NCBI GenBank assembly: GCA_020723105.1
Contig: DYJL01000012.1
Span: 1 to 64,000 of the forward strand
Length of the DNA stretch: 64,000 bases
Source of the DNA: Nitrospira japonica
Lineage (GTDB): Bacteria; Nitrospirota; Thermodesulfovibrionia; UBA6902
Direction: 5' to 3'
In this document: in pieces, positions 3,053-13,210 of the stretch
Numbering within the stretch: position 1 is the stretch's first letter
How the letters are laid out: the number at the start of each line of letters is the position of its first letter
Notes under the pieces: model-generated
The model's database searches: none
The model's input: only the letters and a program-made list of their open reading frames with translations
What the model was told of the DNA's origin: nothing
Position numbers and translations under genes: made by a program

Positions 3053-5743
3053 TTGTCAGAAGATAAATTAAAAATAACAATTAACGGGATTGAGACCCGG
3101 TGTGAAAGAGGAACGACTATTCTTACTGCTGCAAGGCTGGCAGGAGTGAAGATTCCAACTCTCTGCCATGATGACAGGCTGGAACCCTATGGCGGCTGCC
3201 GCCTGTGCATCGTTCAGATTAAAGGTGTGAACAGGCCCCTGCCTGCGTGTACCACCCCTGTTTCGAACAACATGATAATTACTACAGAAAACGAAACACT
3301 GACCAGAATGCGAAAAAATGTTCTGGAACTCCTGCTGTCCAACCATCCTAATGACTGCATGAGATGCGAAAAGACCGGCGAATGCGAGCTGCAGGATCTG
3401 GCATATAAATACGATGTGGACGGGAAACGTTTTGAGGGTGAGATGTGGAACCTGCCAATCCGTGAGGACAACCCGTTTATCACATATGAGCCTAACAAAT
3501 GCATATTGTGCGGAAGGTGCGTGAGAATATGCAATGAAGTCGTAATGGCAGGCACTATTGACCTTGTTGGAAGGGGTTTCAATTCAATGCCTGACACGGC
3601 TTTCAGAAAACCGCGTACTCTGGAGAATTGCGAATTCTGCGGGCAGTGTGTGTCCACCTGTCCGACCGGAGCGCTGACCGACAGGAAGGGCAGAGGCAAA
3701 GGACGTTCATATGAAATGAAGAAGGTGAAGACTACCTGTTCGTACTGCGGCACAGGATGCAACTTCTATTTAAATGTCAGAAACAATAAAGTTATAAAAG
3801 TGACCTCAGCTTATGATGCGCCTGTTAATGAGGGAAACCTCTGCATAAAGGGGCGCTATGGTTATGACTTTATTCACAGCCCTGAAAGGATAACAACTCC
3901 TCTGATAAGAAAAGACGGCAGCTTCCACGAAGCCACCTGGGATGAGGCCCTTGGACTCATTGCAAATAAATTTAAAGAGCTGATTGACAAGTACGGACCT
4001 GAAAAGGTCGGAGCATTTTCCTCAGCGCGCTGCACAAATGAGGAAAACTATCTGCTTGCAAAGTGGGTCAGATGCGCAATCGGATCTAATAACGTGGACA
4101 ACTGCGCGCGTGTCTGACACGCCCCGACTGTTGCCGGTCTGGCAACAAGCCTGGGGGCGGGAGCCGCCACGAATTCATTGTCCCAGATGCCGGATATTGA
4201 CACGCTCTTTCTGTTCGGGTCCAACCCGACAGAAGCGCACCCCATAGTTTCCTTCTGGCTCAAAAAGGCATTGCGCAACGGCGCAAAGCTTATCGTAGGC
4301 GACCCCCGTAAGACCTGGATGGCAAGACGCGCCGACATCTGGCTCAACCTTAAGCCCGGCAGCAACATAGCCATGATGAACGGCCTTGTGAACGTGATAC
4401 TCCAGAACGGCTGGGAGAACAAGGAGTTTATCGCAAAAAGGACGGAGGGGTTCGAAGAGCTCAAGGCAAAAGTTAAGGAATACGACCTGGAGCGGGTTGA
4501 AAGGCTTACAGGTGTTTCAAAAGAAGATATAATCGAGGCCGCGCGCCTGTATTCTCACGCCAGCAAGGCGATGATAGTCTACGGGCTCGGAGTTACAGAG
4601 CATCAGACCGGCACTGAAAACGCTATGGCTATCGCCAACCTCGCGCTTGTCTGCGGACATCTAGGCAGGCCTTCAACGGGTATTATGGCGCTCAGGGGGC
4701 AGAATAACGTCCAGGGCGCTTCTGACCTCGGCCCATTGCCGGCAACGCTCCCCGGTTACCAGCCGGTTTCTGATGCGAAGCTGCGTGAAAAGTTTGAAAA
4801 GGCCTGGGGCATAAAGATAAGTCCCAAACCTGGACTTAAGTCCGTTGAGATGCTTGATGAATGCAGGAGGGGAAATTTCAAGGGACTGTTCATATTAGGA
4901 GAAGACCCGGCCCAGACAGACCCTGATCTCCACCATGTGTGGAAGGCGCTTGAGTCTGTTGAATTCCTTGTGGTACAGGACATCTTCCACACTGAGACAA
5001 CGCGTTTTGCCCACGTGATACTCCCCGGCGCGAGCTTCGCTGAAAAAGACGGCACGTTTACAAACGGCGAGCGCAGGGTACAGCGCGTGAGAAAGGCGAT
5101 AGAGCCTCTTTCCGGAATGGCGGAATGGGAGGTCATCTGCAAGATATCAACCTTGATGGGTTATCCTATGCATTATAATCATCCATCTGAAATAATGGAT
5201 GAGATCGCGAGCCTTGTGCCCATATACGGCGGCATCAGCTATGACCGTATTGAGGAAAAAGGGATTCAATGGCCCTGCCCGACAAAAGATCATCCTGGAA
5301 CGACAACCCTTTATACAGACTTGTTTTCAAGGCCGGGAGGACTGGCGAAGTTCATGGCATTGGATCACAAGGGACCTGGCGAGGTTACTGACAAGCAGTA
5401 TCCGTTTGTCCTTGTAACAGGAAGGATACGGGAACATTATAATAATGGTTCGATGTCGAGAAGGGTGTCAGGGATCATGGAGCTGATCGGGGAAGAATTG
5501 CTTGAGATCAGCTCGGAAGATGCCAAAAAACTCAAGATCAACAACGGCGATATGGTAAAAGTATCCTCGAGGCGGGGAGAAATAAAAGTGAAGGCAAAGG
5601 TCACAGACCGCTCCCAGCCCGGCAATGTGTTCCTCACATTCCACTATCAGGACGCTCTGACGAACCTGCTTACATCAGAACACAGAGACCCGATCACCGG
5701 CACGCCGGAATATAAATCCTGCGCCGTGAAGATAGAGAAGTAG
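3053..5743 (+). CDS. fdhA: Selenocysteine formate dehydrogenase, catalytic subunit (TGA read as Sec)
   Basis: This 896-residue molybdenum/tungsten bis-PGD enzyme oxidises formate to CO2 or runs the reverse. Residues 1-70 hold a plant-type [2Fe-2S] site (C38, C49, C52, C66). H98/C102/C105/C111 form a NuoG-like His-Cys cluster. Two [4Fe-4S] motifs follow (C150-C160 and C193-C203), then the catalytic-domain cluster C229/C232/C236/C264. The in-frame TGA at 4115-4117 is codon 355 in the context NCARV-Sec-HAPTVAG, the standard active-site Sec context of Sec formate dehydrogenases. Reading continues uninterrupted to 5743 through the molydopterin-binding C-terminal domain. A SECIS hairpin follows the TGA. 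The start is TTG with GGGAG upstream. It is the last gene of the formate dehydrogenase operon. Confidence 0.95.
4129..4147 (+). promoter_or_regulatory. Bacterial SECIS element of fdhA
   Basis: A perfect 7-bp stem TGTTGCC/GGCAACA encloses a GGTCT loop whose first base is 18 nt after the TGA. The apical GGTCT matches my recollection of the E. coli fdhF SECIS loop, and the spacing fits a SelB-binding hairpin inside the reading frame. Confidence 0.85.
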
Positions 5744-5857: not shown

Positions 5858-6190
5858 ATGAGCAAAAGGCTATACGAAATTCATGCAGACATATGTAAAA
5901 CATTGGGCAATGCCAGACGGATTGAAATTCTGAACATTCTTAATGACAGGGAATTAACCGTAAGCGAACTTATAGAAAGTATTGGAGCACCTGCTGCAAA
6001 TGTGTCGCAGCATCTGTCCGTGATGAGACAGAAAGGGATACTCACCGCCAGAAGAGAGGGGAACAATATTTATTATAAGGTTTCCAACGATAAGGTGATC
6101 AGGGCTTGCAATCTTATGAGGGAAGTACTGTTTGACCAGATCGAAGAAGGCAAAAAGATAGCCAGGAAGTTTTCGGCCAAAAGCAGGTAG
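5858..6190 (+). CDS. ArsR-family winged-helix regulator, first copy
   Basis: This 110-residue repressor-type protein has an ArsR winged helix: LGNARRIEILNILND, the recognition helix region SIGAPAANVSQHLSVMRQKGIL, and the wing ARREGNNIYYKV. It lacks the paired metal-binding Cys of ArsR/SmtB sensors (only two isolated Cys). It may therefore sense a sulfur or selenium species or another ligand. It lies between the Sec formate dehydrogenase and a second ArsR gene that heads the selenoprotein cassette. Which of these it controls is unknown. Confidence 0.85.
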   Translation: MSKRLYEIHADICKTLGNARRIEILNILNDRELTVSELIESIGAPAANVSQHLSVMRQKGILTARREGNNIYYKVSNDKVIRACNLMREVLFDQIEEGKKIARKFSAKSR

Positions 6191-6296: not shown

Positions 6297-6638
6297 ATGA
6301 ATACTCTAATGAATCACGTCGAAACCTTAAAGCCCGTTTTTCATCCTGTGAGGATAGCCATACTTGAGGAGCTGGCTAAGGGAGTAAAGTGTGTCAGCGA
6401 GCTTGAGGAATTTCTTGCAATAAGCCAATCAAACGTCTCACAGCATCTTTCAGCCTTAAGGCTTGCCGGCATTATTGACTACTTCATAGACGGAAGGCTC
6501 AGATGTTATTTCTTGAAAAATCCCATGATCCCTGATCTGCTTGAGATACTCAAAAAAGAATACCCGGAAGAGCTGCCGGGTCCGGAATGCTGTCCGGTCA
6601 CAAAAAAAGGCACATATCACGGGGACAGGAAAAAATAA
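6297..6638 (+). CDS. ArsR-family regulator heading the selenoprotein/sulfur cassette
   Basis: This 113-residue ArsR-type winged-helix protein has FHPVRIAILEELAKG and SQSNVSQHLSALRLAGII. It carries C32 in the helix position (VKCVSEL) used by ArsR and by persulfide sensors of the SqrR/BigR type, and a C-terminal PECCPV motif. These Cys could sense arsenite, persulfide or selenide; the choice is inference. The gene follows a promoter whose spacer is a perfect palindrome, so autorepression is likely. It ends 20 bp before the YedE-type gene, which places it as the probable regulator of the whole 6.3-10.9 kb operon. No Shine-Dalgarno sequence precedes the ATG; a second ATG lies at 6309. Confidence 0.85.
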   Translation: MNTLMNHVETLKPVFHPVRIAILEELAKGVKCVSELEEFLAISQSNVSQHLSALRLAGIIDYFIDGRLRCYFLKNPMIPDLLEILKKEYPEELPGPECCPVTKKGTYHGDRKK

Positions 6639-6658: not shown

Positions 6659-7846
6659 ATGACGCTCCCCAAGTATTTTCATGAAAAACTGTACAAAAAC
6701 CTATTTGAAAAGACCTGGCCGCTCTGGCTTGGCGGCATTCTGATAGCATTTTTGAACATACTAATGTTTTTATTTCTAATGCCGCTTGGCGGAATATATC
6801 CGGCTATTGCAGATTGGGGTATATGGATATACAGGCTGGCAGGGTTGAAGATAACCCCGCCATGGGGAACTCTAACGCCGCCCCATCTTAGTATTATTAG
6901 TATTCTAAATTTCGGACTGATATTCGGCACATTAATCTCAGCCCTTCTTTCGCGACAATTTAAACTCAGAAAAGATTCAACAGCCGGTTACATCCAGGGT
7001 TTTGCCGGCGGCGCCATGATGGGTATCGGCAGTTTCCTTGTAGGCGCCTGCATCTTTGGAGGATTTTATTCATCAATCATGTCCTTATCCCTGAGCGGGT
7101 TATATATGATGATTGGGTTGCTCACAGGCGCTTTTTTAGGCGGAAAACTTATGATATGGCAGGCATTCAGAGAGGCAGAAAAGATGGAGTTCACGGAGCT
7201 CGTTGATCTGAAAACAGCTCCTGAAAAAAAGGTCAAACGAGTGATTAATTATCCGTTAACAGGTCTTTTTGTTACAATCATTTTGGTTATCACAGCCTCA
7301 GTTTATTTTCTCACCGGGAAAAATGTTTTTGGGGGGATATTGCTCTTTGGCGCAGCCTTCGGGATAGTCTTCCAGAGATCCTCTTTTTGTATATCTGCCG
7401 GTTTCAGGGAAGTCTTTACATCAAAGCATAATGAGCCGATGCGGATCCTCCTGCTTAGTCTTGCGATAGGGACTCTGGGATTTACCATTATAAAGGCAAA
7501 TGGTTTCAGACCTGCAGATATGTTCATCCTTCCGGCAGGCTTGCACAGTATTATTGGCGGGGCAATTTTTGGATTCGGCATGGTTATAACAGGCGGTTGA
7601 GCGGCAGGGATACTCTGGCGGTCCGCCGAGGGATATATAAGACACTGGTTTGCTATGCTTGGGGCCATGCTTGTAGCAGGCTTGTGGGTTCCTCTTTATG
7701 GAGAACAGGCAGGAAAAGGCTGGCTCTATGGGAAAACGGTATTTCTGCCTGAAAAACTCGGTTGGGGAGGTTCTTTAATTGGTGTGCTGGTAATACTTAT
7801 CGCTTTTTACATCTTTGTAACCTGGCTTGAATTAAAAAAGAAATAA
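6659..7846 (+). CDS. yedE: YedE/YeeE-type membrane transporter with selenocysteine (TGA read as Sec)
   Basis: This is a 395-residue polytopic inner-membrane protein of the YeeE/YedE (DUF395) family, which imports thiosulfate in YeeE and is linked to selenium metabolism in YedE. Two Gly-rich half-repeats are visible: GSFLVGACIFGG in the first half, and GMVITGG-Sec-AAGILWRSAEG in the second. The TGA at 7598-7600 is codon 314 and falls exactly where the family has the pore Cys of its GGC motif. Downstream reading continues in frame with two more hydrophobic segments to the stop at 7846. A SECIS hairpin lies 19 nt after the TGA. The start at 6659 follows GGGAAGGAG; the longer ORF from 6587 overlaps arsR. 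Read without recoding, the gene would look like two fragments. Confidence 0.9.
7613..7630 (+). promoter_or_regulatory. SECIS element of the YedE-type gene
   Basis: The hairpin is CTC, a bulged T, GGC, loop GGTCC, then GCC and GAG. It has the canonical bacterial layout: two short stems around one bulged U and a GGUC loop. The loop starts 19 nt after the TGA. Confidence 0.8.
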
Positions 7847-7858
7847 GGAGTTCTAAAC

Positions 7859-8092
7859 ATGGATAAACTTTATATGGTGGATATGAGGAATGGGACCTGA
7901 ATTCCTCCGGGAATTTTAATCTCCATGGTCATGGAGAAACTTGAGAAGTCAGAAAAAGGTACAACACTGAATATGCTTGTAGATTGTTCCTCTACCGGAG
8001 AGAAAATCTATGGTGTCTTGCAAGATGAAGGTTATGATGTAAAAATGGTGCGCATTAAAGAAAGTGAATGGGCTATAAAAGCGAAAAAATAA
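7859..8092 (+). CDS. TusA/SirA-like sulfur carrier with selenocysteine (TGA read as Sec)
   Basis: This 77-residue protein with the TusA/SirA/YedF beta-alpha-beta-alpha-beta pattern starts MDKLYMVDMRNGT-Sec-IPPG. The family active site is Cys-Pro-x-Pro, whose Cys carries persulfide. Here an in-frame TGA at 7898-7900 (codon 14) takes the Cys position and the motif reads Sec-I-P-P. A second Cys follows at VDCSSTG (residue 43). The gene begins 12 bp after yedE with AAGGAG upstream, as is usual for YedE-YedF pairs. Without Sec only a 13-residue peptide would be made, yet the rest is intact and well conserved in pattern. The Sec would carry selenide or a selenosulfide; this is inference. Confidence 0.88.
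7920..7937 (+). promoter_or_regulatory. SECIS element of the TusA-like gene
   Basis: A perfect 7-bp stem TCTCCAT/ATGGAGA holds a GGTC tetraloop that begins 26 nt after the TGA. A second, nearer hairpin (AATTCC/GGAATT, 7901-7916) lacks the GGTC loop. I take the GGTC one as the SECIS. Confidence 0.75.
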
Positions 8093-8109
8093 ATTTAAAG
8101 GAGGATAAA

Positions 8110-8466
8110 ATGAGCAAGACTTTTACACTATTGCTTGGCACATCACCGTATTCTTATGAGAACACACTTACCACGGTAAAGATCGCAGAATCTGCCCTGA
8201 ACAAAGGATACACGGTCAACGTCATCGCATCCGGTGACGGGGTGTATTGTTTTTTGAAAGGGCAGAAGGCAAAGGGGATAACCAATGCTGAGGAGAAGTT
8301 TACAGAGCTTATCGAGAAAGGCCTGAGAGTATATCTCTGAGGCGGGTGTCTCAACTTTCGCCGTGCAGCGAAGAATGATTATCTTGATAACGCAGAAGTC
8401 GGCACCCTCAAGGGTCTTTTTAAAACGATGGGGGAAACCGATATCTGGCTGAATCTGGGAGCATAA
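8110..8466 (+). CDS. DsrE-family protein with selenocysteine (TGA read as Sec)
   Basis: This 118-residue DsrE/YchN-fold protein has FTLLLGTSPYSYENTLTTVKIAESALNKGY and the second half YDYLDNAEVGTLKGLF-type region typical of sulfur-relay DsrE proteins. The in-frame TGA at 8338-8340 is codon 77 in VYL-Sec-GGC-LNFR, the spot where DsrE relatives place the catalytic Cys (Cys-Gly-x-Cys-x-x-x-Arg). The result is a Sec-Gly-Gly-Cys redox pair. Reading continues for 41 residues to TAA at 8464-8466. A SECIS hairpin follows. I chose the ATG at 8110 because AGGAGG precedes it; an upstream in-frame ATG overlaps the TusA-like gene. It would exchange persulfide or selenide with the TusA-like partner. Confidence 0.88.
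8355..8373 (+). promoter_or_regulatory. SECIS element of the DsrE gene
   Basis: The hairpin is CTT, a bulged T, CGC, loop CGTGCA, then GCG and AAG. The bulged U and two 3-bp stems match the layout of the YedE element, and the loop carries GU. It starts 21 nt after the TGA. The loop differs from the GGTC seen in the other three. Confidence 0.65.
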
Positions 8467-8558: not shown

Positions 8559-8912
8559 ATGGGAAAGATAGCAATAGTTTTGAGAAGGTCGCCATATGGT
8601 GATATTAATGCGGCAGAGGCTGTAAGGCATGCGCTTGGCGGTGTTGCGGATGAATTAAGTGTAGACCTCATTTTGGTTGACGCCGGAGTTTTGCTCGCAA
8701 AGCAGGGGCAGGACGATACGGAAACAGGCTTTACAAATCTGGGAGATACACTGATGGACTGCTTAGAGATGGGAGTAGATGTATATGCAGATAAGCATTC
8801 ACTCAGAGAAGAGAATATGGATACGGCGGATATCCCTGAAGGTATTAAGGTAGTAACCGGCTCAGAAATAGCCGATATTATTAAAAATGCAAAGACAACA
8901 ATGATTTATTAA
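8559..8912 (+). CDS. DsrF/TusC-like sulfur relay protein
   Basis: This 117-residue protein of the DsrE/DsrF-like superfamily has KIAIVLRRSPYGDINAAEAVRHALG at the N-terminus and a DVYADKHSLREEN region. Only one Cys is present (MDCLEMG). DsrF/TusC proteins are structural partners of DsrE/TusD and DsrH/TusB in heterohexamers. Here the order Sec-DsrE, this gene, DsrH-like matches dsrEFH/tusDCB. AAAGGAGG precedes the ATG. This is a good family match; the assignment to the F position rests on order and lack of a catalytic Cys pair. Confidence 0.8.
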   Translation: MGKIAIVLRRSPYGDINAAEAVRHALGGVADELSVDLILVDAGVLLAKQGQDDTETGFTNLGDTLMDCLEMGVDVYADKHSLREENMDTADIPEGIKVVTGSEIADIIKNAKTTMIY

Positions 8913-8922
8913 GGAGGTTGTT

Positions 8923-9204
8923 ATGTTTGTTATTGTCAAAAGCGGACCTGATACACAGGATGGGAAGAGAGGGATAAAGCTGGCAAGAGACATGTCTGCC
9001 GATATCTGCCTGATTCAGAATGCAGTATATTTTGCCCGGAAAGAGAGCCTTGAAGGCTTTTGCGGAAAGGTGTATATTCTTGATAAAGATGCCGGTCTCA
9101 GAGGCTTGAAAGATGACGAACTTGAGAAGAGGATAAAGAAGATCGATTATGACGGTCTTGTTGAAATGATGGCTGGAGAAGACAAGGTAGTTGGGATGTA
9201 TTAA
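8923..9204 (+). CDS. DsrH/TusB-like sulfur relay protein
   Basis: This 93-residue protein fits DsrH/TusB in length and pattern: MFVIVKSGPDTQ at the start, DICLIQNAVYFARK, GKVYILDKDAGLRGL, and a C-terminal KIDYDGLVEMM segment. DsrH normally has one Cys near residue 20 that takes part in persulfide relay. Here the Cys residues are at DICLIQ and GFCGKV. It lies 10 bp after the DsrF-like gene with AAGGAGG upstream and completes an EFH-type trio in which the E subunit is a selenoprotein. This organism shows no dsrAB in the window. Confidence 0.75.
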   Translation: MFVIVKSGPDTQDGKRGIKLARDMSADICLIQNAVYFARKESLEGFCGKVYILDKDAGLRGLKDDELEKRIKKIDYDGLVEMMAGEDKVVGMY

Positions 9205-9225: not shown

Positions 9226-10413
9226 ATGGCAAAAATAGCTGTTATAGGCGGTTCCTTCGGAGGCTTGACAGCAGCCTTTGAACTTAAGAGGCTTCTTGGT
9301 AACAAAGCAGATGTAACATTGCTCTGTGATGTGAACAAGTTTGTCTTTGTCCCATCACTTCCATGGATTTCAATGGGATGGCGAAAACCTGAAGACATAA
9401 CACTTCCTCTTGAAAAGATATTAACCCCCAAAGGAATAAAATTTATACATGAAGAGGCAACAGGAGTTGATGCTGATAATTCAAAAGTTATTACAAAGAC
9501 GCAGGAGGTCCCATATGATTATCTTGTCATTGCATCAGGCCCTGCCCTTGGCTTCTCATCGGTACCGGGATTGGGCCCGGAAGGAGGTTATACGGAATGT
9601 ATCTTTACTCTTGAACAGGCAATGAAGGCTAACAATGCATGGAATAAATTTCTTGAAAACCCGGGGCCGATCGTAGTCGGAGCCGTTCAGGGCGTAAGCT
9701 GTTTCGGTCCTGCATATGAATATGCGTTCGAGGTAGATACCGAATTAAGGAAGAGAAACATGCGGCACAAGGTTCCAATGACATTTGTTACTTCCGAACC
9801 ATATATAGGCCATTTCGGAATCGGCGGGCTCAGAACATCCAGGAGAATGATGGAAGATGAATTTGCAGACAGGGAAATAAAAATTATAACCAATCAATCG
9901 GTGGATGAATTCACGCCGGAAGAGGTCAGGCTCAAGGATGGTACAAAGCTGCCGTTTACACTTGCCATGTTTGCTCCTCCAATGGCAGGCGTCAAGGCCG
10001 TATTCCATCTCGGCAATCCCAAAGGGTTTATTCCTGTTGATGCCAATTACCGTCACAAGAGCTATAAAAATATCTTTTCAGTAGGGGTTGCTATAGTAAT
10101 AGCGCCGCCGGAACAGACGCCTGTTCCCACGGGGGTGCCGAAGACAGGATTCATGACCGAACATATGGCAAAGGATGCCGCTAAGAGTATTGCAGCAGAC
10201 ATACTCGGTAAGCCTTCACCCGAAACCGAGCCTGTTGGAGCCCTTTGTATTATGGATATGGGAAATAAGGCAGCATTGATGAAGGCATACCCTGTTCTTC
10301 CACCACGGCGGGTAGCAGAGCTTAAAGTAGGGATCAATTATAAATGGGCAAAGCAGGCCTTTGAAAAATATTATCTCTGGAAGATTAAAAGAGGACTGAC
10401 TCAACTGCCATAA
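9226..10413 (+). CDS. Sulfide:quinone oxidoreductase-like flavoprotein
   Basis: This 395-residue FAD protein of the SQR/FCC family has the Rossmann motif AVIGGSFGGLTAAFELK at residues 4-20, VIASGPALG for the second FAD contact, and GPIVVGAVQGVSCFGPAYEY. Three Cys (C125, C159, C341) fall close to the three redox-active Cys of classical SQR. Known SQRs oxidise sulfide to polysulfide and reduce quinone at the membrane. Its place after DsrE-F-H homologues suggests it makes the sulfane sulfur (or handles selenide) that enters the relay. That substrate is inference. AAGGAGG precedes the start. Confidence 0.82.
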   Translation: MAKIAVIGGSFGGLTAAFELKRLLGNKADVTLLCDVNKFVFVPSLPWISMGWRKPEDITLPLEKILTPKGIKFIHEEATGVDADNSKVITKTQEVPYDYLVIASGPALGFSSVPGLGPEGGYTECIFTLEQAMKANNAWNKFLENPGPIVVGAVQGVSCFGPAYEYAFEVDTELRKRNMRHKVPMTFVTSEPYIGHFGIGGLRTSRRMMEDEFADREIKIITNQSVDEFTPEEVRLKDGTKLPFTLAMFAPPMAGVKAVFHLGNPKGFIPVDANYRHKSYKNIFSVGVAIVIAPPEQTPVPTGVPKTGFMTEHMAKDAAKSIAADILGKPSPETEPVGALCIMDMGNKAALMKAYPVLPPRRVAELKVGINYKWAKQAFEKYYLWKIKRGLTQLP

Positions 10414-10429: not shown

Positions 10430-10852
10430 ATGGAAAAAATAGTAAAAAATGTCTCTATAATGTGTTTCCATGATGAACTCTGTCAGGTCTATAATGCCCT
10501 TATGACTGCATTAAGCCTTTTAAGGGAAGGCTCAAAGGTAACAATATTTTTTGGTTCCCGGGGTGTTAACGCACTTCATAAAGATAAGGTGAAAACTCTT
10601 CAATGCTTGCCTGATCAACCCAAAGAATTCGGCGAAGCTGTAATGAAAAGGATGGAAGAGATGGAACTTCCCAATGTTGAAGATTTATTTGTAATGCTGC
10701 ATATGGAGGGGGCAAAACTTCTGGCTTGTCCATTGAATGTTCCGCTGTTTGGCATGAGTGAGACAAATTTTATTGAAGGTGTTGAGATAGCCAATCCGGC
10801 TACATACTATAAAGAAGTTGTCATTAAAGCAGATATGAATCTGACTTTCTAA
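10430..10852 (+). CDS. DsrE-like (DsrE2-type) protein
   Basis: This 140-residue DsrE/DsrF/DrsH-fold protein has MCFHDELCQVYNALMTALSLLREGSKVTIFF, then GAKLLACPLNVPLFGMSE. Related DsrE2-type membrane-linked or peroxiredoxin-like proteins carry a Cys at the LACP position used in sulfur transfer. It closes the sulfur cassette 16 bp after the SQR-like gene, with GAGGTG upstream. It is probably a further acceptor of persulfide. I cannot name a precise subfamily. Confidence 0.7.
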   Translation: MEKIVKNVSIMCFHDELCQVYNALMTALSLLREGSKVTIFFGSRGVNALHKDKVKTLQCLPDQPKEFGEAVMKRMEEMELPNVEDLFVMLHMEGAKLLACPLNVPLFGMSETNFIEGVEIANPATYYKEVVIKADMNLTF

Positions 10853-10903: not shown

Positions 10904-13210
10904 ATGCGTAAATTTTCCCTTGTCGAGTTTTCAGTAAATCATCCAAAACTGATCGTACTGCTTACGATTATCATTACCCTCGCATTTGCGACTCAGTTTA
11001 CGAAAATCAGGACAGACACCAATCCCAAGAACATGCTTCCTGAGACATCCGATGTCAGGGTCTGGAATGACGAGGTTGAAAAGACCTTCAGTCTCTATGA
11101 AGACATGATTGTCGTTGGAATAGAGAATGATAAGGGGATTCTAAATAAAGATACCCTCGGAAAGGTTCACAGGATTACAGATGAGGTACTGAAGATCAAA
11201 GGCGTTGCTGCAAGGGATGTAAACAGTTTTCCTACTATTACCAATGTCACGGCAGAGGCCGGGACTTTGAAAGTGGCTCCCCTCATGGCACAAGTGCCTG
11301 AAAATGATGCTGAGATAGCAGCACTACAGAAGATGCTTTTTGAGAATCCTCTCTTTATCAACCGCATTATCTCAAAAGATGGAAAGACCACCGCTATCTA
11401 TGTCCCTCTTGAAAAAGGGGCAAACGGAAAAGAGATTGCCGACGAGATAAGAAAGATACTGAAGAAAGAAACAGGCGATGAAAAATATTATGTAGCAGGC
11501 GATCCTGTGGCGCGTGACACCTTCGGGGCTGAGATGTTCAAGCTCATGGCTGTATTCGCCCCGATTGCAGGCATGGTAATGCTCATTGTCAGATATCTTA
11601 TGTTCAGGGACCTTTTCCTCTCTATCACGCTTATGATGGACGCAATGGTCAGTATCGTCTGGAGCATGGGGCTCCTTATAGGTCTTGGCTATCCTATTCA
11701 TATCATGAGTTCAATGGCCCCTGTTTTTCTGATGGCGATAGCGACAGACAGCATGCATATATTCAATGAATTCTACTTCCGCTACAGGGAGAAGAGAGAT
11801 AAAAAGAGCGCGATAATCGAAACCATGCGAGCGGTGAGCCGGCCTGTCCGCAACACCGCGCTGGCAACAGCGGTTGGTTTCGGCGTGCTCCTCTTTATGA
11901 ATATCATTCCTGTTAAGGTCTTTGGCGGTCTCGTAGCATTCGGCACGATAGTCCTAAGGATATTGAGTTTCAGCTTTATACCGGCGATGTTCACTTTTGT
12001 GAAGGAGAAGCAGATTGAAAAAATTGCCCATGCGGAAGACATTAAGGTGAGCGGGACATCAAAGCTCCTCCAAAAACTTGCAGGTATAGGCACGTACAGC
12101 CCAAAGACAACAGTCATTGCCGGTCTTGTGCTGTTTGCGATAGCAATCGTCGGGCTGACTCAATTGAAAGTAAACAACAACCTGGTGGAGTGGTTCAAGA
12201 AAGGCAGTGAAGTGCGCAGCGCCGATACGGTCATAAACAGGTCTCTCGGCGGCACATCGCTTGGTTATGTCGTCGCAACCGCTCAGGAAGATGATTTTAT
12301 TAAAACCCCTGAAGCGATGCGCTATATCGAGGGACTTCAGCAGCACCTTGAAAAACTTTCTGTTGTCGGCAAGACCACTTCGGTTGTTGATTACGTGAAA
12401 CGTATAAACCGTGTCCTCCATGACGATGATCCCGCATACGACGCCGTGCCTGATACAAAGGAGTCCATAGGACAGTATCTCTTTTTATTCAGCATGTCTG
12501 CAAAGCCGTCCGACCTCGACAATGTTGTTGATTACCCGTTCAGGAGGGCGAATATCTGGTTGCAGTTGAAGACCTGGGACGCACAGGCGATGAGGGATGT
12601 TATTAAAGCAATGGATGAGTATAAAATGGATCATCCTGTTGCCATGGAACTCAAGCCCTCGGGCATCGCCTATTTCAATCTCGTCTGGAACGATGAGGTG
12701 CTATGGGACATGTTAATGGGCTTTATCCTTGCCCTTATCGCGGTCTTTGCCATACTTGCCTTTGACTTCCGCTCTCTCAAATGGGCTGTTGTCGGATATA
12801 CTCCGCTTCTGTTCACAATACTGCTCATCTACGGCGTTGTCGGCTTTATCGGCAAGGATTTTGATATGCCGATCTCCGTGCTTTCCTGTCTTTCACTCGG
12901 CATGGCAGTAGATTTTGCGATCCATTTTGTAAGCAGGCTTAGACAACGTATGACGGAAACGAAAGGCAGTGAATCCCTTTCCGATGCGTTGCTCTGGACA
13001 GCCGCGCGGCCAGGAAAAGGGATAATCCGCAATGCAGTGCTCTTTGCTGCATCCTTTGCCGTGATGATCTTTGCGCCGTTAACACCGTATATAACGGTGG
13101 GCTCTTTCATTGTCAGCATGATGATGCTCAGCGCAGTGATGACAATAATCTATCTGCCGGCTCTTATTGTTTTGCTGAAAGGCTGGCTCTTTAAAGGAGG
13201 TTTAAGATGA
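10904..13210 (+). CDS. MMPL/RND-superfamily exporter
   Basis: This 768-residue protein has two RND half-repeats: an N-terminal membrane helix (about 14-30), a large periplasmic loop, a helix bundle at about 215-365, a second helix at about 400, a second loop, and a last bundle from about 625 to 760. Such MMPL proteins in Gram-negative bacteria move hydrophobic molecules (hopanoids, lipids, carotenoids) between membranes. The next two genes, a LolA-like protein and a beta-barrel, overlap or adjoin it and form the usual three-gene envelope export set. GCTGGAGG precedes the start. The substrate is not evident. Confidence 0.85.
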   Translation: MRKFSLVEFSVNHPKLIVLLTIIITLAFATQFTKIRTDTNPKNMLPETSDVRVWNDEVEKTFSLYEDMIVVGIENDKGILNKDTLGKVHRITDEVLKIKGVAARDVNSFPTITNVTAEAGTLKVAPLMAQVPENDAEIAALQKMLFENPLFINRIISKDGKTTAIYVPLEKGANGKEIADEIRKILKKETGDEKYYVAGDPVARDTFGAEMFKLMAVFAPIAGMVMLIVRYLMFRDLFLSITLMMDAMVSIVWSMGLLIGLGYPIHIMSSMAPVFLMAIATDSMHIFNEFYFRYREKRDKKSAIIETMRAVSRPVRNTALATAVGFGVLLFMNIIPVKVFGGLVAFGTIVLRILSFSFIPAMFTFVKEKQIEKIAHAEDIKVSGTSKLLQKLAGIGTYSPKTTVIAGLVLFAIAIVGLTQLKVNNNLVEWFKKGSEVRSADTVINRSLGGTSLGYVVATAQEDDFIKTPEAMRYIEGLQQHLEKLSVVGKTTSVVDYVKRINRVLHDDDPAYDAVPDTKESIGQYLFLFSMSAKPSDLDNVVDYPFRRANIWLQLKTWDAQAMRDVIKAMDEYKMDHPVAMELKPSGIAYFNLVWNDEVLWDMLMGFILALIAVFAILAFDFRSLKWAVVGYTPLLFTILLIYGVVGFIGKDFDMPISVLSCLSLGMAVDFAIHFVSRLRQRMTETKGSESLSDALLWTAARPGKGIIRNAVLFAASFAVMIFAPLTPYITVGSFIVSMMMLSAVMTIIYLPALIVLLKGWLFKGGLR

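Follow-up and report, generated by a model that had tools for sequence, protein, structure and literature searches.

The yeeE-tusA-dsrEFH gene set, with which the YTD cluster is equated by authors working on cable bacteria (PMC13293266), has been put forward as a possible marker of sulfur disproportionation (PMC12998232) and, in the relevant passages of both papers, is reported from Nitrospirota and Desulfobacterota with reductive dsrAB. According to the passages on cable bacteria, TusA hands sulfur to Cys67 of DsrE in the DsrEFH type II complex, which hands it on to DsrC (PMC13293266); selenium goes unmentioned in the passages of either paper (0 occurrences of "selen-" in each). In thiosulfate uptake by YeeE-YeeD, the YeeE residues C293, C91 and C22 and then, in fourth place, the TusA-like Cys17 stand in line for thiosulfate (PMC11073785). 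Cys91 and Cys293 of YeeE are indispensable, although doubt has been cast on whether sulfur can pass directly from one YeeE cysteine to another across about 7 Å (PMC11582611). On the selenium side, YedE and YedF have been linked genomically to SelD (PMC5322559), and the selenoprotein families YeeE/YedE (GUxSG) and DsrE-like (UxxC) are already listed (PMC13188914, PMC1088965). The selenoprotein operons named in reviews are Grd, Prd, Frh-Hdr, Sao and Tso, the last described, as one review relays it, as a three-selenoprotein operon with an ArsR-type regulator, TsoR (Haft and Tolstoy 2025, via PMC13188914).

The locus described here, in a window of 64,000 nucleotides (the whole stretch of DNA analysed) from a deep-subsurface bacterium, differs from all of these operons. 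It resembles YTD in its gene set, with yedE-type, tusA and dsrE-type genes and two DsrF/DsrH-type genes in the same order, but its YedE, TusA and DsrE are predicted to carry selenocysteine (Sec), and SQR and ArsR genes lie in the neighbourhood. The active position of DsrE would be Sec rather than Cys67, which does not lower the likeness in working. Like YeeE/TsuA with YeeD/TsuB, the locus has the Sulf_transp fold, a TusA-type partner and the three positions of the relay cysteines, whereas the window YedE has the opposite, YedE-type order of its halves and a predicted Sec at C91, and scores far below what NCBIfam requires for TsuA/YeeE (101.8 against 400 bits and 75.7 against 645). The half order and the yedE-tusA pairing are those of YedE/FdhT and YedF of selenium metabolism. 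The NCBIfam models closest to the window YedE and to a second TusA of the genome, on contig C88, are indeed YedE/FdhT and YedF, but both scores lie below cut-off (138.7 vs 350 bits; 40 vs 79), and the window proteins, unlike these, are putative selenoproteins. Sec would occupy the same motif positions as in the listed YeeE/YedE and DsrE-like selenoproteins (GGUAAG; UGGC); those, however, are listed singly, as the sequence-only reading of this DNA had stated, and without the operon seen here. Like Tso, as far as it is relayed, the locus combines three selenoprotein genes in one operon with an ArsR-type regulator, but TsoA, TsoB and TsoC belong to different families; as they gave no match to the window proteins at E 0.01, identity with Tso was rejected.

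Three consecutive genes with predicted selenocysteine

The sequence-only reading had proposed products of 395, 77 and 118 residues, each with TGA at the functional Cys of its family and a SECIS-like hairpin 19-26 nt 3' of the TGA. Coordinates and lengths proved exact (Table 1), and the three consecutive genes hold exactly one in-frame TGA each. The YedE matches the YeeE structures 8j4c and 6leo (phmmer, E 5e-21 to 5e-20), its halves following the YedE/FdhT order, and the residues corresponding to YeeE Cys22 and Cys293 stay Cys, while the predicted Sec aligns to Cys91. This Sec is kept in 13 relatives at 44-100% identity, and more distant relatives have Cys in the column. The corresponding TusA column is Cys in all 28 homologues, and that of DsrE is Cys in the four outgroup genomes in which DsrE was read. 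These homologues bear out the placement at functional cysteines, and the predicted Sec is located at the YeeE Cys91, TusA CPxP Cys and DsrE active Cys positions.

When the read-through products were aligned to families, as the same reading had proposed, they fell into Sulf_transp, DsrE and, just under the gathering score (24.7 vs 28.6), TusA. The C88 relative, 42% identical to the window TusA and likewise with one TGA, passes the same threshold (43.3 vs 28.6 bits). A sequence search of the PDB for homologues of DsrE, TusA and YedE was informative for YeeE and SQR only. Five close sequences yielded an AlphaFold model of DsrE of low quality (pLDDT 59), whose top Foldseek matches were DsrE-family folds, none below E 0.01; the comparison is thus no more than consistent with the DsrE fold.

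Table 1. Coordinates of the predicted selenoprotein genes, their recoding signals and neighbouring genes in the window, and of the two-TGA transporter in other loci
Feature	Position	Strand	Match or remark
Second ArsR-type regulator	5858..6190	+	
ArsR-type regulator adjoining operon	6297..6638	+	Cys 32, 70, 98, 99 invariant in 41/41
Sec-YedE (predicted), YeeE/YedE-family membrane protein, 395 aa	6659..7846	+	Pfam PF04143 Sulf_transp E 2.5e-44
Predicted Sec UGA of YedE, codon 314	7598..7600	+	aligned to Spirochaeta thermophila YeeE Cys91
Putative YedE SECIS	7613..7630	+	CUC-(U)-GGC-GGUC-C-GCC-GAG, E. coli-like, bulged U
Sec-TusA (predicted), 77 aa, UIPP replacing CPxP	7859..8092	+	Pfam PF01206 E 2e-5, below gathering score
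Predicted Sec UGA of TusA, codon 14	7898..7900	+	
Putative TusA SECIS	7920..7937	+	UCUCCAU-GGUC-AUGGAGA, seven-pair stem
Sec-DsrE (predicted), 118 aa, motif UGGC	8110..8466	+	Pfam PF02635 E 3.8e-16
Predicted Sec UGA of DsrE, codon 77	8338..8340	+	
Putative DsrE SECIS	8356..8373	+	six-pair stem, loop NGU...
DsrF/TusC-like subunit	8559..8912	+	Pfam DsrE 3e-13; NCBIfam TusC 2e-9, below cut-off
DsrH/TusB-like subunit	8923..9204	+	Pfam DsrH 2e-10; NCBIfam TusB 3e-11, below cut-off
Sulfide:quinone reductase-type flavoprotein (SQR)	9226..10413	+	3hyv sulfide-quinone reductase E 3e-98
DsrE2-like protein, Cys form	10430..10852	+	Pfam DrsE_2 7e-16
MMPL/RND transporter, conserved neighbour of Sec-DsrE operon	10904..13210	+	
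Two-TGA YeeE/TsuA-type transporter (other loci)	L174 6662-7750; L175 6141-7232; also L176, L177, L178, L180, L181		

Reading of the TGA codons

Hairpins were found 3' of all three TGAs, the apical loop starting 19 nt (YedE, GGUC), 26 nt (TusA, GGUC) and 21 nt (DsrE, CGUGCA) after the UGA. In DsrE, for which synonymous codons were resampled in 1000 trials as a null model, stem pairing across 48 sequences was 0.934 against a null mean of 0.627 and maximum of 0.684, with 31 fully paired stems against a null mean of 0.8. The stem shows compensatory C-G / U-A changes, the loop has G at position 2 in 48/48 and U at position 3 in 46/48 sequences, and the stem is absent from the four Cys-DsrE sequences. 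YedE stem pairing likewise exceeded the null maximum (0.897 vs 0.769), and its GGUC loop is present in 13 of 13 sequences. The SECIS of DsrE and YedE is thus conserved beyond what protein coding needs. The TusA hairpin, with seven pairs and a GGUC loop, is confined to the two C6-type copies, two close sequences that carry no independent significance, and the C88-type copies form a weak hairpin only.

Four named metagenome-assembled genomes (MAGs) of other species, all Thermodesulfovibrionia or Nitrospirae from deep mines (SURF, DeMMO) and groundwater, share the TGAs of YedE and DsrE at protein identities of 84-97%, and one of them shares that of TusA as well. Since these independent assemblies show TGA and not the TGC or TGT on which the sequence-only reading would have foundered, assembly error was rejected. 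Between related sequences, dN/dS 3' of the TGA (Nei-Gojobori, few sites) was 0.05-0.13 for YedE, 0.04-0.13 for DsrE, 0.15 for the window TusA against DeMMO2_3 and 0.02 for the C88-type TusA pair, similar to the part 5' of the TGA; purifying selection therefore acts 3' of the TGAs (omega about 0.02-0.15). Conservation, omega and the SECIS tests together reject chance read-through.

The 3.13 Mb genome is also equipped to insert Sec. A search for selA, selB, selC and selD, which the sequence-only reading had linked to its validity, found all of them over cut-off: selA adjoins selB on contig C94, which also carries tRNA-Sec, and selD, itself with a TGA, is on C88. A general recoding of TGA was rejected, because genes in the window terminate at it, as at the end of the MMPL/RND transporter gene. 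Upstream of the operon, a molybdopterin formate dehydrogenase of NuoG/FdhA type at 3053-5743 has an in-frame TGA of its own at 4115 (VDNCARV-Sec-H) and is a putative fourth selenoprotein of the window; a tie between it and the operon was rejected, as it was a conserved neighbour in 0/38 related loci. The remaining long TGA read-throughs of the window lacked family support.

It could be argued that the TGAs are not read as Sec but mark pseudogenes, errors of assembly or a different meaning of the codon, considering that the Sec readings come from sequence rather than peptides and that the C88 TusA copy has a weak hairpin. Against this stand the same TGAs in other genomes, the low omega beyond them, the SECIS covariation, the complete Sec machinery and the use of TGA as an ordinary stop, which make such an explanation exceedingly improbable. 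Every test made supports the proposal of three real selenoproteins, with Sec predicted at the functional Cys.

Operon neighbours and distribution in Nitrospirota

The Dsr-like setting suggested for the three genes, with DsrF, DsrH and SQR homologues, is supported by the Pfam and 3hyv matches, and the gene-order comparison with relatives, also proposed at the outset, revealed a conserved operon ArsR - DsrE(Sec) - DsrF - DsrH - SQR; genes for a DsrE2-like protein, another ArsR protein and an MMPL transporter often come next. SQR adjoins DsrEFH in most loci, and TauE-type exporter genes are present in some. Of the 396 Nitrospirota genomes sampled, 92 have a DsrE with an in-frame TGA, a figure counted by hand that includes a few copies with one more stop; direct reading of the Sec column covered 48 distinct sequences. 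YedE with one TGA gave 11 matches in the family, three of them in the source genome (contigs C6, C88 and C25), while more distant copies have no TGA at the Sec column. Sec-TusA was found only in the source genome (two copies), in genome G268 and in DeMMO2_3. Close relatives add Sec-YedE to the Sec-DsrE operon, and some also Sec-TusA. Since the order in G268, DsrE(Sec) - DsrF - DsrH - YedE(Sec) - TusA(Sec), differs from that of the window, the three predicted selenoproteins travel together in two arrangements. Sec-DsrE accompanied by DsrF, DsrH and SQR occurs throughout the class, and Sec-YedE and Sec-TusA are later, lineage-specific additions.

The third Sec-YedE of the source genome is solitary, near groEL/groES (C25:28583-29752, L053), with counterparts in genomes of the same genus (L059, L060, L061). 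In one genome only, G030, a YeeE-like protein with a putative Sec at a C91-like position (ALAGL-Sec-PGTC; L127 3624-2383) lies near a Cys-type DsrE-DsrF-DsrH, Sec and Cys being swapped between the partners compared with the window.

Outside the window, 15 of 396 genomes encode a second transporter, of YeeE/TsuA type, with predicted Sec at the C22 position as well as at C293; other genomes have forms with Sec at C293 alone. A residue-by-residue check of seven double and thirteen single cases agreed throughout. The two-TGA form has a second SECIS with a GGU loop and keeps Cys at C91, complementary to the window YedE. A tree of 25 rows, biased by their selection for TGA, requires at least five changes of state. 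In L174 and L175, two small genes precede the two-TGA transporter, one of them a weak DsrE match.

The source genome has dsrC and dsrAB, with an 82-aa protein lacking a Pfam match in the DsrD position between dsrB and dsrC (L227 6284-6532, contig C80). Among Sec-DsrE genomes, dsrA was found in 82 of 92, compared with 95 of 304 others, a difference much of which shared ancestry explains. Of 61 Sec-DsrE loci, 4 have a selD gene next to the operon: in L105 (4699-5670), L106 (7668-8639) and L115 it separates the ArsR gene from Sec-DsrE, and in L134 it follows DsrEFH. The four genomes belong to two families, and the three selD copies read contain a TGA (CAG-Sec-AAK).

A proposed sulfur relay and its alternatives

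We consider the locus best explained, and probably so, by a selenocysteine-based relay that imports sulfane sulfur and hands it over. This relay is favored by the chemistry of YeeE-YeeD and the cable-bacteria system, the presence of dsrC and dsrA, the SQR match and the ArsR cysteines taken together. By analogy with the homologues, zero-valent or thiosulfate sulfur would pass through YedE past Cys, Sec and Cys; the TusA selenol would pick it up as Se-S(n)H; and it would move on to Sec77 of DsrE inside the DsrEFH complex, which would deliver it to DsrC and DsrAB. SQR might make polysulfide from sulfide or be coupled to the same pool, the ArsR protein could sense sulfane sulfur via its invariant cysteines, and with Sec instead of Cys each step of the transfer would be quicker and easier to reverse. 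The sequence-only reading had suggested a dedicated pathway for selenide or persulfide. Its persulfide half is the best-supported reading, given YeeE, TusA and DsrEFH chemistry and the genome's dsrAB and dsrC, but selenide transport was not upheld, no selenium gene lying beside the operon in the source genome.

The few loci with selD and the nearest NCBIfam models, those of selenium metabolism, speak against a sulfane-sulfur relay, as does the doubt over transfer across about 7 Å in YeeE. The first two keep alive a selenium-trafficking operon, in which YedE would import or export selenium species, a YedF-like Sec-TusA and Sec-DsrEFH would hold them as Se-Se, and SelD would receive them for selenophosphate; the genomic link of YedE and YedF to SelD points the same way (PMC5322559). 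We nevertheless regard this as unlikely, though still live: the curated cut-offs are unmet, 57 of 61 loci have no selD beside them and that of the source genome lies on another contig, the neighbours SQR, DsrF, DsrH and TauE-type are sulfur proteins, and selD near selenoprotein genes can simply serve their synthesis. Less likely again is a module for sulfide or persulfide detoxification and redox homeostasis, apart from energy metabolism, with SQR making persulfide, Sec carriers buffering it and ArsR in control. The ArsR with its four invariant Cys and SQR are indeed the most constant partners, and ten Sec-DsrE genomes, several of them incomplete, yielded no dsrA, but the great majority have it, and the known role of DsrEFH is to feed DsrC.

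Relative to the reviews (with Haft and Tolstoy 2025 as far as relayed there), no description appears to exist of Sec-TusA, of the triple, of the Sec-DsrEFH-SQR operon that spans the class or of the YeeE with two Sec, and TusA (PF01206) is absent from the 2026 selenoprotein list (PMC13188914). The putative Sec-TusA would add TusA to the known selenoprotein families. The locus also implies that gene callers shorten DsrE, YedE and TusA in many genomes, and surveys of sulfur disproportionation and oxidation that use YTD or DsrEFH markers may therefore miscount Nitrospirota.

The sulfane-sulfur relay also admits a wider reading. Since C22, C91 and C293 are each predicted to be Sec in some transporter, and TusA and DsrE also have Sec forms, sulfane sulfur might travel from selenium to selenium. 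Tentatively, then, Nitrospirota related to Thermodesulfovibrionia may have rebuilt with selenols the entire route that sulfur takes from the membrane to sulfite reductase, as a selenium-based chalcogen relay and not as isolated selenoenzymes. Discussions of selenocysteine usually treat it as a redox catalyst; in these proteins it would replace the sulfur-holding residue of successive carriers, and the locus may serve as a natural experiment on whether persulfide transfer is faster with a selenol.
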